Below, piece after piece: positions 9,435 to 63,185 of a stretch of DNA of 63,185 nucleotides (within the stretch, counting starts at the first letter, position 1; every line of letters starts with the position of its first letter). Both the position numbers and the translations under genes were made by a program. Under the pieces are notes generated by a model that made no database searches, was not told the DNA's origin, and saw only the letters and a program-made list of their open reading frames with translations. Source of the stretch: Anaeromicrobium sp. (GTDB taxonomy: Bacteria; Bacillota; Clostridia; Peptostreptococcales; Thermotaleaceae). The stretch lies in the NCBI RefSeq assembly GCF_025210435.1, contig NZ_JAOART010000087.1, forward strand, positions 1 to 63,185, written 5' to 3'.

Positions 9435-10772
9435 ATGAAATTAAGGGTATATATTGAAACATTAGGATGTGCTAAAAATCAAGTAGACTCAGAAGTGATG
9501 ATGGGGCTTTTAAAAGAACATGGATTTTTATTAGAAATGGAAGAAGACAGGGCAGATATTATAATAGTAAACACCTGTGGATTTATAAATGATGCAAAGC
9601 AAGAATCTATAGACACTATACTTTCTTTAGCTAAATATAAAGAACATGGAAATTGCAAATTGTTAATAGTAGCTGGATGTTTAGGAGAAAGATATAATGA
9701 TGAATTATTAAAGGAATTACCAGAAGTAGATGGAATTGTGGGAACTGGAAACTTTCCTCAGGTTGTTGACATTGTAAATAGTACATTAAAGGGAGAAAGA
9801 ACTAGCAAGCATGGAGATATAAATGTGGTATTTGATGAAAATATGCCAAGAATATTAGGAACACCTTCCTATAGTGCATATTTAAAAATTGCTGAAGGTT
9901 GTGACAACCTATGTACTTATTGTATTATTCCAAAATTAAGGGGTAAATATAGAAGTAGAGAAATGAAGGATATAATAGGAGAAGCAAAATCATTAGCATC
10001 ACAAGGTGTTAAAGAATTAATCATAATAGCACAAGATACTTCAAACTATGGAATAGATTTGTATGGAGAAATTAAAATAGGGGATCTTTTAGATGAATTA
10101 AATAAAATTGAGGGTATTAAATGGATTAGAATACTGTATTGTTATCCAGAAAAAATAGATGATAAGCTTATAGAATCCATGAGTAGAAATGAAAAGGTAT
10201 GCAAATATATAGATATGCCAATACAACACTGTAGTGATAATATATTAAAATTAATGAATAGAAAAACAAGTAAAGAACATATAGAAACTGTAATAAAGAA
10301 ATTAAGAGAAAAAATAGGAGATATTAGTATAAGAACTACCTTAATAGTAGGTTTTCCTGGGGAGACAGAAGAAGACTTTTTAGAGTTAAAGGATTTTGTT
10401 AAAAGGATGAGATTCGATAGATTAGGAGTATTTCCTTACTCTAAAGAAGAGGGAACATCGGCTGAAAAGCTTCCAAATCAAGTGGAAGAAGATATAAAGA
10501 TATCTAGACAAGAGGAGATAATGGATATACAAAAAAATATATCCTTTGAGAAAAATAATGAGAAAATAGGTAATATTTATGATATACTTATAGAAGAAAA
10601 AGAAGCAGAAAATGTATATGCTGGAAGAAGCATGTATGATATTCCTGATGTAGATGGAATAGTGTATGTTAACTCTGAGGTTGATTTAAAGGAAGGCCAA
10701 ATAGTAAAAACAGAGATAACAGATGCTTTCGAATATGATTTAATAGGGGAGATGCTTGATGAATCTTGCTAA
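9435..10772 (+). CDS. rimO: ribosomal protein S12 methylthiotransferase
   Basis: Radical-SAM methylthiotransferase that modifies an aspartate of ribosomal protein S12. At 445 aa it has the three-part family layout: UPF0004 domain with Cys12, Cys48 and Cys82 (ETLGCAKNQVDSE, VNTCGF, AGCLGER), radical-SAM CX3CX2C at Cys156, 160 and 163 (CDNLCTYC), and a C-terminal TRAM domain from about 380. ETLGCAKN and CIIPKLRGKYRSR favour RimO over MiaB, which is present separately at 48.4 kb. The pgsA start lies inside its last codons. Confidence 0.95.
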   Translation: MKLRVYIETLGCAKNQVDSEVMMGLLKEHGFLLEMEEDRADIIIVNTCGFINDAKQESIDTILSLAKYKEHGNCKLLIVAGCLGERYNDELLKELPEVDGIVGTGNFPQVVDIVNSTLKGERTSKHGDINVVFDENMPRILGTPSYSAYLKIAEGCDNLCTYCIIPKLRGKYRSREMKDIIGEAKSLASQGVKELIIIAQDTSNYGIDLYGEIKIGDLLDELNKIEGIKWIRILYCYPEKIDDKLIESMSRNEKVCKYIDMPIQHCSDNILKLMNRKTSKEHIETVIKKLREKIGDISIRTTLIVGFPGETEEDFLELKDFVKRMRFDRLGVFPYSKEEGTSAEKLPNQVEEDIKISRQEEIMDIQKNISFEKNNEKIGNIYDILIEEKEAENVYAGRSMYDIPDVDGIVYVNSEVDLKEGQIVKTEITDAFEYDLIGEMLDESC

Positions 10773-15145: not shown

Positions 15146-15997
15146 ATGGTAATAAATGTAAAATACTATGTTATAACTATAGTTGCAATATTTTTAGCAA
15201 TTGGAATTGGTATATTCATAGGTATAATGTTAGATGGCCAAGATCTAATAGTAAAGCAACAGGAAGATATATTAAAGCAGGTAGAAGATAGGTTTGATGA
15301 ATTTAAGGTTAAGCAGGACGAATTACAAGAAAGTGTTGCCAAATTAAATAATGAAAATGAAAATAATGTTAAATTTTTAAATACTATTTTCCCTAACCTA
15401 GTAAAAGATAGGCTAACAGGTTATAAAGTTATGATAATAGAAACTAGTGAACACATATCCTATTCAGAAATAGATGATACTTTACAAAAAAGTGGAGCTG
15501 AAAGTATTTCTAAGCTAATAATAAAGAATAAATTTTTATCATCTGAAAATCGAATAACTGAAAATCCTGAAGGAGAAAGTGTAGAAAGAGTAAATATTGA
15601 TCAATTGTTAAATGGCATATTCATAGAAAAAAACCAGGATCTAATTAAAAAATATGTAGAAGATGAGATTATTCAATTAAATGGTGAAATTAACATGGAA
15701 TTTGATTACATAATTTTAGCAGGGGAAGATAATGAAGAATTAAAGTTATTTGAGAGTATAGAAAAGCCTATAATAAGTTTTTGTAAGGAAAATAATATGG
15801 GAATAATAGCTGTTGAAAAAACTAATAACGATGTATCTAAAATTAAAGAGTATAAAAAGCTAGGACTATCTACTGTAGATAATATAGATACAACCATGGG
15901 AAAAATATCTTTAGTAATGATTCTAACAGGAGAAACTGGAAATTATGGACAAAAGAAAACAGCTGACAAATTAGCTCCTCAGTGGTTTAAGGAATAG
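15146..15997 (+). CDS. steB: SteB/MctB-like membrane protein
   Basis: 283 aa, often annotated as copper transporter, MctB family. One N-terminal transmembrane helix (about 7-27) is followed by a coiled coil (about 35-70) and a soluble domain, so most of the protein is outside the membrane. I see no metal-binding Cys or Met cluster, so copper transport is doubtful and partnership with the adjacent SteA-like protein is more likely. AAAGGAGG precedes the start. Confidence 0.75.
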   Translation: MVINVKYYVITIVAIFLAIGIGIFIGIMLDGQDLIVKQQEDILKQVEDRFDEFKVKQDELQESVAKLNNENENNVKFLNTIFPNLVKDRLTGYKVMIIETSEHISYSEIDDTLQKSGAESISKLIIKNKFLSSENRITENPEGESVERVNIDQLLNGIFIEKNQDLIKKYVEDEIIQLNGEINMEFDYIILAGEDNEELKLFESIEKPIISFCKENNMGIIAVEKTNNDVSKIKEYKKLGLSTVDNIDTTMGKISLVMILTGETGNYGQKKTADKLAPQWFKE

Positions 15998-58748: not shown

Positions 58749-60041
58749 ATGTTACGAAGTACTAAAGACTATTTAATAGAACATATGAACATATCAGAGA
58801 AGGTACTTAATCTTAGTAATGAAGTGGAAAATGAGATTAAAGATAGATTAAAAGACATTGATAAAATAAGGGAATTTAATCAATATAAAGTATTAAAGGT
58901 ATTTCAAGAGTGTAGAGTAAGTGATTCACATTTTCAGTGGAATACAGGATATGGATACAATGATATGGGAAGAGAAACTATAGAAAAGGTATTTGCACAA
59001 TTATTTAATTGTGAAGATGCTATAGTTAGACCTACTATAGTTAATGGTACTCATGCCCTTACCCTATGTTTAACAGGTATATTAAGATCAGGGGATGAAA
59101 TAATCTCTGCCACAGGAAAGCCTTATGATACCCTAGAGGAAGTAATAGGAATCAGAGGAGAGTATGGTGGATCATTAAAGGAATTTGGAATTACATATGA
59201 ACAAGTGGATTTTAAAGAGAACGGAAATGTAGATATAGAAAAATTAAAGTCATTAATAAGTGAAAAAACTAAAATGATATATATCCAAAGATCTACAGGG
59301 TATGATTGGAGAAAGGCCCTTACTATAAGTGATATAGAAGAAGTTGTAAAAGCTGCAAAGGAAATTAAACCAGATGTGATTTGTATGGTGGATAATTGCT
59401 ACGGAGAATTTTTAGATACAAAAGAACCTACTGAGGTTGGTGTAGATGTGATGGCAGGATCACTAATTAAAAACCCTGGTGGTGGGTTGGCTTTAACAGG
59501 AGGATACATAGTAGGGAGAGAAGATTTAATAGAAACTATCTCATATAGAATGACATCTCCTGGAATAGGAAAGGAATGTGGCCTTACCTTTGGCATGACA
59601 AGAAGTATGTTCCAAGGATTATTCATGGCACCCCATGTGGTAAGTGAAGCCATAAAGGGAGCCATATTCTGTTCAAAGCTATATGACAAGCTAGGATATG
59701 AAGTATCACCTAAATGGCATGAGAGTAGAAGTGATATAATACAGGCAATAAAACTTGGTAGTGAAAAGGCTGTAGTGGCCTTTTGTGAAGGTGTACAAGG
59801 GGCCGCACCAGTGGATTCATTTGTAAAGCCAGAACCATGGGAAATGCCAGGATATGATTCACCAGTTATCATGGCAGCAGGAGCCTTCGTTCAAGGATCA
59901 TCTATAGAACTAAGTGCCGATGCACCAATTAAGGAACCTTACATAGTATATTTCCAAGGTGGACTTACATATGAGCACAGTAAATTCGGAGCCATTAAGG
60001 CCTTGAGCACTATGGAGGAACAAGGTTGTATACAGTTGTAA
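58749..60041 (+). CDS. methionine gamma-lyase family protein (aluminum-resistance type)
   Basis: 430 aa fold-type I PLP enzyme of the COG4100/YnbB family, annotated as methionine gamma-lyase-like or aluminum-resistance protein; the true substrate is not settled. GYGYNDMGRETIEKVFAQLF, PTIVNGTHALTLCL, VDNCYGEF and the PLP lysine in AGSLIKNPGGGLALTGGY are conserved. The last codons (from about 60027, giving CIQL) may be supplied by the adjoining transposon end. Third gene of the spoVK-GTPase unit. Confidence 0.9.
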   Translation: MLRSTKDYLIEHMNISEKVLNLSNEVENEIKDRLKDIDKIREFNQYKVLKVFQECRVSDSHFQWNTGYGYNDMGRETIEKVFAQLFNCEDAIVRPTIVNGTHALTLCLTGILRSGDEIISATGKPYDTLEEVIGIRGEYGGSLKEFGITYEQVDFKENGNVDIEKLKSLISEKTKMIYIQRSTGYDWRKALTISDIEEVVKAAKEIKPDVICMVDNCYGEFLDTKEPTEVGVDVMAGSLIKNPGGGLALTGGYIVGREDLIETISYRMTSPGIGKECGLTFGMTRSMFQGLFMAPHVVSEAIKGAIFCSKLYDKLGYEVSPKWHESRSDIIQAIKLGSEKAVVAFCEGVQGAAPVDSFVKPEPWEMPGYDSPVIMAAGAFVQGSSIELSADAPIKEPYIVYFQGGLTYEHSKFGAIKALSTMEEQGCIQL

Positions 60042-60122
60042 AGTTGTGTTTGTTTAATAAAGTTGTAAACTGTTTAATAAAACCGTAAACTGTTTAATAT
60101 AGTTGCAAACTAAACTTGCAAA
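60041..60122. repeat. phased 20-bp repeats, likely TnsB-binding transposon end
   Basis: TGTTTAATAA at 60051-60060 and 60071-60080 and TGTTTAATAT at 60091-60100 recur every 20 bp. TTGTAAA, CCGTAAA and TTGCAAA precede or follow each at 60063, 60083 and 60103, with another TTGCAAA at 60116. The period is two helical turns, so sites face the same side. The layout resembles closely packed TnsB sites of a Tn7-type right end. Confidence 0.65.
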
Positions 60123-60127
60123 TTTCA

Positions 60128-60165
60128 AAATTCTTATGAAGGAAATACTTCATAAGAATTTTTTT
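60128..60165. terminator. terminator inside the transposon end
   Basis: AAATTCTTATGAAG (60128-60141) pairs with CTTCATAAGAATTT (60148-60161), then TTTT. It would stop transcription entering from the host gene. Confidence 0.82.
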
Positions 60166-60429
60166 AGTGTGTAGTAATTGAAATCATAGAAAAAATTAAT
60201 ATTAGAACCATTGATTAAAATTATTTAGGGAAGCTTAATCTATAAAACATTAAAATTATTAATGCAAAAAAATGGTCACATTCTGTAGTATGAGTTTTAA
60301 ATTACAAATTCTAATTATATATTATAAATTTAAACTAAGTAGTTATATGCTGGTCTAAAAATGGATATAAATAGTATGAAATTTACTAAACTTCAATCCT
60401 TTAAATAAGTGCTAATGAAAGGGGATAAC
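60166..60429. other. AT-rich leader of the TnsD-like gene
   Basis: 264 bp without an ORF I can support. No clear promoter or further copy of the 20-bp repeat stands out. GAAAGGGG at 60416-60424 is the ribosome binding site of the next gene. Confidence 0.5.
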
Positions 60430-62373
60430 ATGTTAAAATATTTTCCAAGAATATATCCTGAGGAAATTTTCTATAGTGTGATAGCTAGATACCATAAGCA
60501 TTGTGGAAATGTATACTTTAAATCTACCTATAAGGATTTATTTAATAAGTCGTCTAAAGGAACTCAAATAGATTTTCCGAATAATTTAGATTTAGTAGTA
60601 TCAAAATTACCAAATTCAATCAATTACACTAGTGAATCAATAATTAAAAACAATACCTTATATAATTGTTATCTCCCTTTTGTTCCCATACAAACTCAGA
60701 GAAAAATTATAAGAATAATGAAAGGTCAAGAAAGATCAAAAACTTTTGGGTTTGTAGGTATGTCTACTCAAAAACATCTTAAAAGGCGACACTTATTTTA
60801 TTGTCCAATATGTGCGAAACAAGATTATAAAAGATTTGGAGAGTCATATTTTCACAGGATACATCAAATACCAGGAGTAAATATTTGTAATCAACATAAA
60901 TGTTTACTAACTGAATATGAAAAAGAATTAAAGTTAATAGGAGTTGGAAAATACTATGATTGTGATTACAATTTTCTTGACTTAAAAATACATTACGAAG
61001 AAGATAGCAACTATGAAAAAGAGTTGCTAAATATAGCAAATGCATTTGATTATTTATTAAAAAAAGATTTGAGTCATTTTAATCAACTAGAAATTCACAA
61101 AAAGTATAGATTTTTTATGGAACAAAAAGATTTAATAGACAGAAGAGGTTGCATAAAACATAAAGATTTACATGAGCAATTCACAAGCTATTTTACTCAT
61201 AAACTGCTACTAGAATTAAATTGCCAAATTGAATATTCTCATCATATTTATAATAATTGGTTAAGTAGAATATCTGGAAAAACAGCAGGCGTAATTGAAC
61301 CTATTAGACATATATTATTTATACAATTTTTAGTTGGAGATATAAAAGCCTTTTTTGAAGAAAGGTATGATGAAGAAGAAAGTGTAAAAGAAAAAAACTT
61401 CAATGAAAAAAGAAGTAAGTATAGGCATACGTTGAAGGCGTTTATAAGTAAATTTCCTAATACTAACAGGAGTAACCTTTCTAAAAAAATAAGAATTGAA
61501 TATAGATGGCTTCGTAAAAATGATAGAGAATGGTTTGAACAGAATGCGCCAAAATCATCAACTAATAAATCAATAAATGAAAAATTATTAAATGAGTCGA
61601 AAAGAAAAATTCTTAATTTCATTATAAATACTCCAAATTGCAATAGAAATCAAATAATAAATTCTTATGCAAATGAATATAAGAGAATTAAGGTTTATGA
61701 TAGAACATGGTTTGAGGAAAATATGCCTAAACCAATCAGGAATGAATTGTGCAAAGATGATTTTTATGATAAAGTTCGAAAGTATAAATCAGAACTATTA
61801 GAATATCTAAAACAGAATCCTAATAGTAACAGAAGTGAGCTTAGAGAAAACTTACCAAAACAATATAATTGGTTATATAATAATAATATTGATTGGATTA
61901 ACGAAAATTTACCTAATAGAAAAATGAGATCAAATTATATAAATAAGTACAAGTTTAAATATAGAGAATTAATATTAGATTATATAGAAAATAATCCTAA
62001 ATCTTGTAGAGAAATGATAAAAAGAGCTTCACGAAAACCTTTCAATTGGTTGTATATGAATGACAAAGAATGGTTTGATAGTAATATGCCTAGACCACTT
62101 GAATCTAAAGAAAGAAATATAAATAAGAAGCTTAGAGTAGATTGGGGGGAAAGGGATAATATTATTTTAGAAGAATTAAAAGAGATTTATAAACGTATTA
62201 CTAGAAATAGCAGTCGCAGAAGAATAACTAATAAATACTTGTTAGGTCAATTAAGACCAGAATTCAGATCACCAGTTAAAAATGATTTAATTAAAATGCC
62301 GAAGACTAAAAATTATATTGATTCGATAGTAGACACAAAGAGAACTTACCAAATGGAAAAAAATAAAATTTAA
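60430..62373 (+). CDS. tnsD: TnsD/TniQ family transposon target-site selection protein
   Basis: 647 aa, longer than Tn7 TnsD (about 508). TniQ domain at 1-165 with YPEEIFYSVIARYHKH and the zinc motif CPIC (Cys125, 128), GESYFHRIHQIPGV and CNQH (Cys153, His156). Four repeats of about 60 residues follow (about 332-375, 391-435, 452-496, 510-556), each ending like WLxxNDxxWFxxNxP, then the TnsD end domain starting VDWGERD (570). The repeats probably read the attachment DNA. ATG 60430 is used; a weaker frame start at 60409 lacks a site. It ends at its own terminator. Confidence 0.9.
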   Translation: MLKYFPRIYPEEIFYSVIARYHKHCGNVYFKSTYKDLFNKSSKGTQIDFPNNLDLVVSKLPNSINYTSESIIKNNTLYNCYLPFVPIQTQRKIIRIMKGQERSKTFGFVGMSTQKHLKRRHLFYCPICAKQDYKRFGESYFHRIHQIPGVNICNQHKCLLTEYEKELKLIGVGKYYDCDYNFLDLKIHYEEDSNYEKELLNIANAFDYLLKKDLSHFNQLEIHKKYRFFMEQKDLIDRRGCIKHKDLHEQFTSYFTHKLLLELNCQIEYSHHIYNNWLSRISGKTAGVIEPIRHILFIQFLVGDIKAFFEERYDEEESVKEKNFNEKRSKYRHTLKAFISKFPNTNRSNLSKKIRIEYRWLRKNDREWFEQNAPKSSTNKSINEKLLNESKRKILNFIINTPNCNRNQIINSYANEYKRIKVYDRTWFEENMPKPIRNELCKDDFYDKVRKYKSELLEYLKQNPNSNRSELRENLPKQYNWLYNNNIDWINENLPNRKMRSNYINKYKFKYRELILDYIENNPKSCREMIKRASRKPFNWLYMNDKEWFDSNMPRPLESKERNINKKLRVDWGERDNIILEELKEIYKRITRNSSRRRITNKYLLGQLRPEFRSPVKNDLIKMPKTKNYIDSIVDTKRTYQMEKNKI

Positions 62374-62681
62374 AGTTTTGAATTATTAACAATATATGAA
62401 TAGATTTATAAATTTGACTTAAAGAGAAAGTTAACTTTGTCAAAATGGAGAGAAGTATAAAATTGTTCTAGCAACAAATTTATACTTCTTTTTATATAAT
62501 TATTCACTTTTACATAAGAAGGAGGTTCTAATTAATAAGCAACTATGTAGATAGTAATAACAGGATATATTTAATGTGAATACATTAATTAAGTCATAAA
62601 TATAACAGAAAAAAACATTTATGTTATATTTTGTATTTTAATAGTTAATAATACAGTAATTATGCAAAGAGGGTATCTATT
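62374..62681. other. gap between tnsD and tnsA
   Basis: 308 bp. Holds the tnsD terminator, an orphan AAGGAGG at 62519-62525 with no usable start codon after it, and an inverted repeat AAATATAACA (62598-62607)/TGTTATATTT (62622-62631) before tnsA. No gene seen. Confidence 0.55.
62451..62494 (+). terminator. terminator after the tnsD-like gene
   Basis: AGAAGTATAAAATTGTT (62451-62467) pairs with AACAAATTTATACTTCT (62473-62489), one mismatch, then TTTTTA. Confidence 0.8.
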
Positions 62682-63176
62682 ATGTCTAGACATGGAAAAA
62701 GCGATATATGTAGATTAAAAGAAAAAAGAGGCTTAGGTAGAGGTATTAATTATATTCCTTGGATAAAAGTACACGAAGTCCCTTCAAGGGGAAGGAAACA
62801 TAGAGTACTTGGAGTCAAACACAAGAGGATATATCATTTTCTAAGTGATTTAGAATACTACTTTTACTTATTGCAAATTTTTGATAGTAATGTTGTAGAA
62901 ATCAGAGAACAGTTTCCCTTATTATCATTAGAGACTACAAAACTAATAGCAGAGGAGTTGAATATTAGGCACCCCTCAGTTGGTGGGCGAGATATAGTTA
63001 TGACTACGGATTTTTTAATAACAGTAAAAAAGGATAACATATATACTGGACAGTCAAAAGTTAATTCCAATAATTTCAAATTAAAAAAATATAACACCCT
63101 TATGCAATTTTATAGTATCCTTATTAGCGACAAAACCTTTAAGGAGAAAAAATTACAGGAGTGTTATATAAGTTAG
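62682..63176 (+). CDS. tnsA: TnsA-type transposon endonuclease, N-terminal domain only
   Basis: 164 aa. Restriction-enzyme-like nuclease that cuts the 5' ends of Tn7-like elements together with TnsB. Catalytic residues: Glu58 (FLSDLEYYF), Asp110 (MTTDFLI), Gln124 and Lys126 (GQSK); REQFPL (75-80) is also conserved. Spacing agrees with Tn7 TnsA. The chain stops 38 residues after the Lys, while Tn7 TnsA has a further about 110-residue winged-helix domain. The tail (from VNSNNFKLKK) does not look like the usual TnsA continuation. GAGGG lies before ATG. The other two frames are closed here, so a simple frameshift is not evident. Confidence 0.82.
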   Translation: MSRHGKSDICRLKEKRGLGRGINYIPWIKVHEVPSRGRKHRVLGVKHKRIYHFLSDLEYYFYLLQIFDSNVVEIREQFPLLSLETTKLIAEELNIRHPSVGGRDIVMTTDFLITVKKDNIYTGQSKVNSNNFKLKKYNTLMQFYSILISDKTFKEKKLQECYIS

Positions 63177-63185
63177 TTTATCATA

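Follow-up and report, generated by a model that had tools for sequence, protein, structure and literature searches.

A Tn7-like transposon directly behind a methionine gamma-lyase-family gene, the probable attachment gene of its lineage, in Anaeromicrobium sp. (Thermotaleaceae)

A Tn7-like transposon is inserted, in the usual Tn7 orientation, directly behind the gene of a methionine gamma-lyase-family PLP enzyme (MGL), and this gene is with good confidence the attachment gene of its lineage. Both ends of the element, a 5-bp target-site duplication, flanking DNA of an element-less relative on both sides, and the same transposon end behind MGL in related genomes were all observed, and by descent the element is Tn7-like. 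A wider reading is put forward tentatively: a Tn7-like lineage, seen in a single family (Thermotaleaceae), would home to MGL by means of TnsD proteins in which a C-terminal module has been multiplied to four, as a modular reader of a longer coding stretch, and would have inserted repeatedly, so that its stacked right ends now form the 3' end of the host gene.

The window, i.e., the whole stretch of DNA that was analysed, is the entire contig C41 (63,185 bp) of a 3.96-Mb assembly of 148 contigs, labelled G000. Since C41 ends inside the element, the window had to lack tnsB, tnsC and the second end. It contains the following features:

58749..60041, + strand, methionine gamma-lyase-family PLP enzyme (MGL), the probable attachment gene (PF06838, E 4.8e-193)
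60040..60044, unstranded, left copy of the 5-bp target-site duplication AAAGT, overlapping the TAA stop (end register)
60045..60111, + strand, right transposon end: 8-bp terminus TGTGTTTG and three overlapping TnsB-type sites at 20-bp spacing (repeat and register analysis)
60127..60165, + strand, terminator-like hairpin with 15-bp perfect arms and a T-run, just within the right end
60430..62373, + strand, tnsD1, a TniQ/TnsD protein of 647 aa with four tandem C-terminal modules of about 55 aa and a C-terminus shorter than that of TnsD2 (PF15978, E 2.1e-51; PF06527, E 4.4e-20)
62682..63176, + strand, truncated tnsA: the N-terminal domain, then non-homologous sequence to the contig end (Pfam, 1f1z)
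63177..63185, unstranded, contig end; the element continues on contig C70 (assembly)

The MGL gene, which we take to be of the COG4100 or "aluminium resistance" type, is represented by strong homologues (E below 1e-100) in 38 of the 41 genomes searched, its own genome counted. Its stop codon TAA occupies positions 60039-60041, and the right end begins at 60045, three bases past that codon and 6 nt beyond its first base, which leaves MGL intact. The terminus contains TGT and is followed by a threefold 20-bp repeat at 60051-60111, which corresponds to the layout given for Tn7 ends, an 8-bp terminus with TGT and then the TnsB sites, in passages of PMC11406308. A preliminary description of this DNA had pointed to TnsD-like and TnsA-like genes and a repeat array directly 3' of MGL, and Pfam, the solved Tn7 structures and the 20-bp copies bear it out; the array, real as it is, turns out to be the transposon end itself, from 60045, and no separate feature.

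The other end of the element, together with much of its coding capacity, was located on contig C70:

C70:171-1118, strand not given, 3' part of tnsC (TniB/AAA match; 35% to the TnsC of contig C39)
C70:1185-3248, strand not given, tnsD2, 687 aa (PF15978 and PF06527)
C70:3448-8101, strand not given, Qat defence genes (PADLOC: qatA, qatB with a weak match at E 6e-11, qatC, qatD)
C70:8428-11103, strand not given, N6 DNA methylase that also matches, weakly, an ATPase domain (family match)
C70:15832-15972, inverted, three spaced left-end sites starting at 15832, 15887 and 15954 (pattern match)
C70:15980, unstranded, left terminus (register with the right end)
C70:15981-15985, unstranded, right copy of the duplication AAAGT (end register)

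Each of the three inverted sites differs by one mismatch from the site of the window. Outside the outermost one lie 8 bp (TGAGGTTA), the same length as the terminus of the right end, and AAAGT then follows on both sides; a chance agreement of these five bases would have a probability of about 1/1024. Compared with the ends of the Tn7 type, the right end fits fully, and the left end possesses the sites and a terminus that reads TGA in place of TGT. The second end and the 5-bp duplication, which the preliminary description had proposed to look for, are accordingly present on C70.

The DNA beyond the duplication comes from the same locus. Directly after AAAGT, C70 carries an older right end and then the DNA that follows MGL in G001, a congener whose MGL is 96% identical to that of the window and whose genome gave no match to the TnsD of the window, nor to PF15978 at E 1e-10. 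C70:15981-16174 agrees in 174 of 195 columns (89%) with the G001 DNA located 198-391 bp behind MGL, and what follows in G001 matches contig C27 from base 161, in continuation of the C70 flank, the two contigs overlapping by 65 bp of repeated sequence. A short repeat with inverted ends, which looks like a MITE or an IS end, occurs at this break (C70:16175-16312, C27:1-65) and also before glmS on C39 (L130, about 10340-10510). When the element is removed on paper, the order MGL, AAAGT, old right end is restored, which is the arrangement of G001. The related genome with an empty site, suggested earlier as a comparison, thus exists in the sense that G001 is devoid of the element, but its site already carries older ends. 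The assembled parts amount to 19.1 kb, of which C41 contributes 3,141 bp and C70 15,980 bp; no sequence joins C41 to C70, and the middle of the element is missing. C70 begins in a repeat with further copies on contigs C103, C132, C122, C105 and C80, which would explain the assembly break and which also cuts tnsC.

A search for the end motif TGTNNTTGTTWAATAWAGTYGYAAACT, with up to two mismatches, covered 17 family genomes and 394 order genomes. The motif occurred at 12 places in seven of the 394 order genomes, every one of them in an MGL locus; a reversed-pattern control gave one place in the 394 order genomes and none in the 17 family genomes. Seven of the 12 places lie at the stop codon of MGL, one per genome. 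Counted from the first base of the stop, the terminus lies 6 nt downstream in six of them and 2 nt upstream in G016, where the transposon end (G016:C1:1778053-1778079) extends into MGL, whose last bases and stop codon it provides. Of the remaining five, three are on C70, where they correspond to the older right end and to two of the left-end sites; G001 accounts for one more, its second right end, and G012 for the last, which follows a truncated copy of MGL. The right end of G005 is more degenerate and falls outside the two-mismatch pattern, which brings the right ends to 8 of the 17 family genomes; none was found behind MGL in 8 other family genomes with up to four mismatches, and G002, with no strong MGL match and no lexA match, was left out of the comparison. 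The motif therefore occupies a fixed place and orientation behind MGL in several genomes, the second end being known from G000 alone and the right end alone elsewhere. In a collection of 84,980 species, a non-exhaustive scan from which G001, an exact match, is missing and which may omit the genome of the window and those near it, the exact motif was found in two records, Lutibacter sp. B2 (JADPRS010000035.1) and Marinisporobacter sp. McD1.33 (JAOARP010000020.1). Both are MGL loci and correspond to G010 and G015, already among the seven genomes; Marinisporobacter is a member of the Thermotaleaceae. In G012, the MGL 3' end also recurs twice on contig C14 (L071), about 4.8 and 9.2 kb beyond MGL; both copies are truncated and diverged, the first being followed by right-end-like sequence and a terminator as behind MGL itself, the second by a different hairpin.

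The DNA between MGL and lexA was compared in the same family. MGL and lexA are separated by 0.2-1.3 kb in seven of the eight genomes without a right end (6 kb in G007), and in the eight genomes with one they lie 13-94 kb apart in four and on different contigs in three, lexA being not found in the last. A reading of this interval as a transposon island or cargo was dropped because the ORFs of the four long intervals appeared by eye mostly ordinary and chromosomal, in an order partly common to relatives; it was further weakened by the lack of tns remnants and by a split that largely follows genera. In the MGL-lexA DNA of G001, G012, G015 and G016 and in parts of that of G005, G010 and G014, no tns gene was detected by tblastn (E up to 1) apart from two TnsD matches no better than chance (E 0.30 and 0.71). 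Nor did the same DNA contain any group of inverted sites, the scattered inverted near-matches having three or four mismatches, with five in G001, two of these 18 bp apart. In G012, no recombinase that would indicate an integrase-type island stood out when the ORFs within the first 5 kb were inspected by eye.

Since neither tns genes nor groups of inverted sites were found in that DNA, the right ends of the relatives may derive from one old insertion, inherited vertically and kept because the end carries the terminator of MGL, the element of G000 alone being a later arrival. This must be regarded as a serious possibility, if a somewhat doubtful one: the position is the same, related sequence is seen by eye past the terminator in G012, G005 and G015, and left ends and tns genes were not found in the DNA examined from the relatives. 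Against it, G001, with two or three right ends in a row, and C70 have more than one right end, the number of sites varies (three, two or one), and G009, of the same genus as G014-G016, is devoid of a right end. According to the reading of repeated insertion, later elements would enter where the earlier ones did, between MGL and the right end already present, and the right ends would pile up and outlive their elements. G001 has a hairpin similar to that of the window in its right-end relic (81% over 188 aligned columns including the hairpin).

The transposition genes of the element are Tn7 homologues, several of them incomplete. A sequence search of solved structures matched tnsD1 to the Tn7 TnsD (8glu, E 7.3e-15), and its homology to tnsD2 continues beyond its own stop, with one TAG and one TAA within the match. 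The N-terminal domain of TnsA lies barely above the Pfam cut-off (26.8 versus 26.5 bits), and the protein matches the solved Tn7 TnsA (1f1z, E 3.8e-28, over chain residues 15-120 only; also 1t0f) and diverges from the two other TnsAs of the genome after about residue 116. Of the TnsA endonuclease the N-terminal part alone is present, truncated either in this copy or at the assembly break. Tn7-like elements devoid of TnsA exist, and an incomplete tnsA bears on activity, not on descent. Of the two genes expected in the flanking contigs according to the preliminary description, tnsC is represented by its 3' part on C70, but a third tnsB was not found in the assembly, the sole copies being those of C39 and C102; its expected place is the unassembled gap. 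Owing to the truncated tnsA, the tnsC cut by a repeat, the shortened tnsD1, the TGA of the left terminus and the tnsB not found, the present copy is probably immobile. C70 further encodes an rve-domain transposase fragment and a SEC-C protein. Among its ORFs of at least 90 aa no Cas effector gene was noticed by eye, part of the element being unassembled, and PADLOC run on nine proteins returned, of its CAST-locus models, TniQ only, which matched TnsD2.

In the C-terminal part of the TnsDs, a profile built from ten module copies, partly from the scored proteins themselves and therefore yielding flattering E-values, detected four tandem modules of about 55 aa in tnsD1 and four in tnsD2, each at E 1e-22 or better. 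Exactly one module was detected in each of the 14 other TnsDs with any (those of C39 and C102, and 12 from other genomes), and none in the TnsD of G021 or the second TnsD of G029; the set left out a 148-aa TnsD piece and the third TnsD, both of G014. The two four-module proteins are each other's closest relatives found, and their modules pair best in register (81 identities, the first of 24 pairings, the next reaching 78), which suggests, by a small margin, a gene duplication subsequent to the multiplication of the modules.

The presence of two tnsD genes, together with the missing junction between C41 and C70 and the stacking observed at the site, would also agree with two stacked elements, one contributing tnsD1 and tnsA on C41 and the other tnsC, tnsD2 and the cargo on C70. 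This arrangement seems unlikely, as one right and one left end are flanked by the same duplication and the two TnsDs, with the same four modules, are so closely related. Still less credible is the reading of the 20-bp array as a native 3' untranslated feature of MGL in the family, with the tns genes merely nearby, which was prompted by the array of G001 without tns genes and which accounts for at least one site copy and a hairpin behind MGL without this TnsD in G001, G005 (degenerate), G010, G012, G014, G015 and G016, across four genera, but which was dropped because on C70 the element terminates in three spaced, inverted copies of the same site beside an identical 5-bp repeat and a second right end, the array has the 8-bp plus TGT layout of a Tn7 end (passages of PMC11406308) and does not follow MGL in any of the 8 other family members examined, and MGLs about 75% alike would not be expected to keep neutral DNA so similar.

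As to the single element homing to MGL, its mechanism may be pictured from that of Tn7, in which the C-terminal domain of TnsD recognises the 3' coding sequence of glmS (passages of PMC11406308). The four-module TnsD would bind the conserved 3' coding end of MGL and recruit TnsC, and TnsA/B would then attach the right end at a point 6 nt downstream of the first base of the MGL stop codon, sparing the gene. Multiple helix-turn-helix domains have been described in the C-terminal region of TnsD (Faure et al. 2023, passages of PMC10293859), so that several DNA-binding domains in a TnsD are not new in themselves; four copies of the module may read more of MGL than one. The proposal of MGL as the attachment site of this lineage, already made in the preliminary description, is supported by the second end, the duplication and a motif found only in MGL loci, the recognition of MGL by TnsD being the part that we infer.

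The distribution of TnsD was surveyed by scoring the best two or best five candidates per genome. PF15978 was matched at E up to 1e-10 in 16 of the 394 order genomes, including G000, the only one among the TnsD genomes checked with TnsD beside MGL; no TnsD of this architecture was seen apart from the pair in this one element, which bears on the earlier suggestion that the neighbours of TnsD homologues be tabulated. Thirteen TnsD stretches, several of them short or ending at contig ends, were taken from 12 of the 15 other genomes, leaving out G103, G155, G201 and further TnsD places in G014 and G057. MGL occurred in none of the 13 and glmS in four, adjoining tnsA in G009, G014 and G195 and about 2.5 kb off, cut by the stretch end, in G011, the nine others being without glmS. 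Within the scope of this survey, no independent element with transposition genes at MGL was found among the 394 order genomes. Searches with TnsD1 in the genome_contigs collection, with TnsD2 in phages and with the exact end motif in viral contigs gave no match; TnsD2 matched 187 plasmid records, all below 60% identity, three of which cover at least 80% of the protein.

Other Tn7-like elements were encountered along the way. In G000, a second one, with its own repeat array and genes open from tnsA to tnsD, lies on C39 (L130, 10899 onward; L010) directly behind glmS, a gene named from its sequence, and a third, with tnsC split over two ORFs, on C102 (L131, 12840 onward; L011), its tnsA being located about 5 kb behind a gene that by eye is likely an RlmCD/RumA-type methyltransferase, with other ORFs between. 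In G014 (C24, 34000-53000; L154), two tandem elements occur behind glmS, the proximal tnsD match covering only about 148 aa.

Few attachment genes have been named for Tn7-like elements, and MGL would add a new one. Those named in passages of PMC11406308 comprise glmS, yhiN, comM, parE, guaC, yciA, ffs, rsmJ and tRNA genes. No report of an MGL attachment site was found in the literature searched, where a listing in supplementary tables is possible: "aluminum resistance" and "methionine gamma-lyase" do not occur in that literature, "lyase" and "aluminum" are absent from the main texts of PMC8649781 and PMC10293859, and ynbB gave one literature match, PMC6411097. MGL and the TnsD with a quadrupled module offer a natural pair for asking how the modules read DNA and whether their number can retarget insertion. 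The stacked right ends would represent a fossil record of repeated homing, and they carry a warning that end arrays can outlive their element and resemble native repeats.

With respect to known systems, the Qat cargo is nothing unusual, defence cargo being ordinary for Tn7-like transposons according to passages of Benler et al. 2021 (PMC8649781). The dual tniQ/tnsD loci described in passages of Faure et al. 2023 (PMC10293859) likewise possess two tniQ/tnsD genes per element; these are tandem, whereas in the MGL element they flank tnsA and tnsC and both encode four-module TnsDs, and its assembled parts showed no CRISPR-Cas genes. With Tn7 and the glmS-homing elements, e.g., that of C39, the MGL element shares TnsA, TnsC and TnsD, the 5-bp duplication, a point of insertion that lies behind a conserved gene and leaves it intact, and the layout of the ends, with overlapping sites near the attachment gene and spaced sites at the far end. 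It differs from them in its location behind MGL instead of glmS, 6 nt downstream of the first base of the stop codon, in the order of its genes, one tnsD preceding tnsA and a second following tnsC, and, with respect to the C39 element, in a TnsD built of four modules instead of one.
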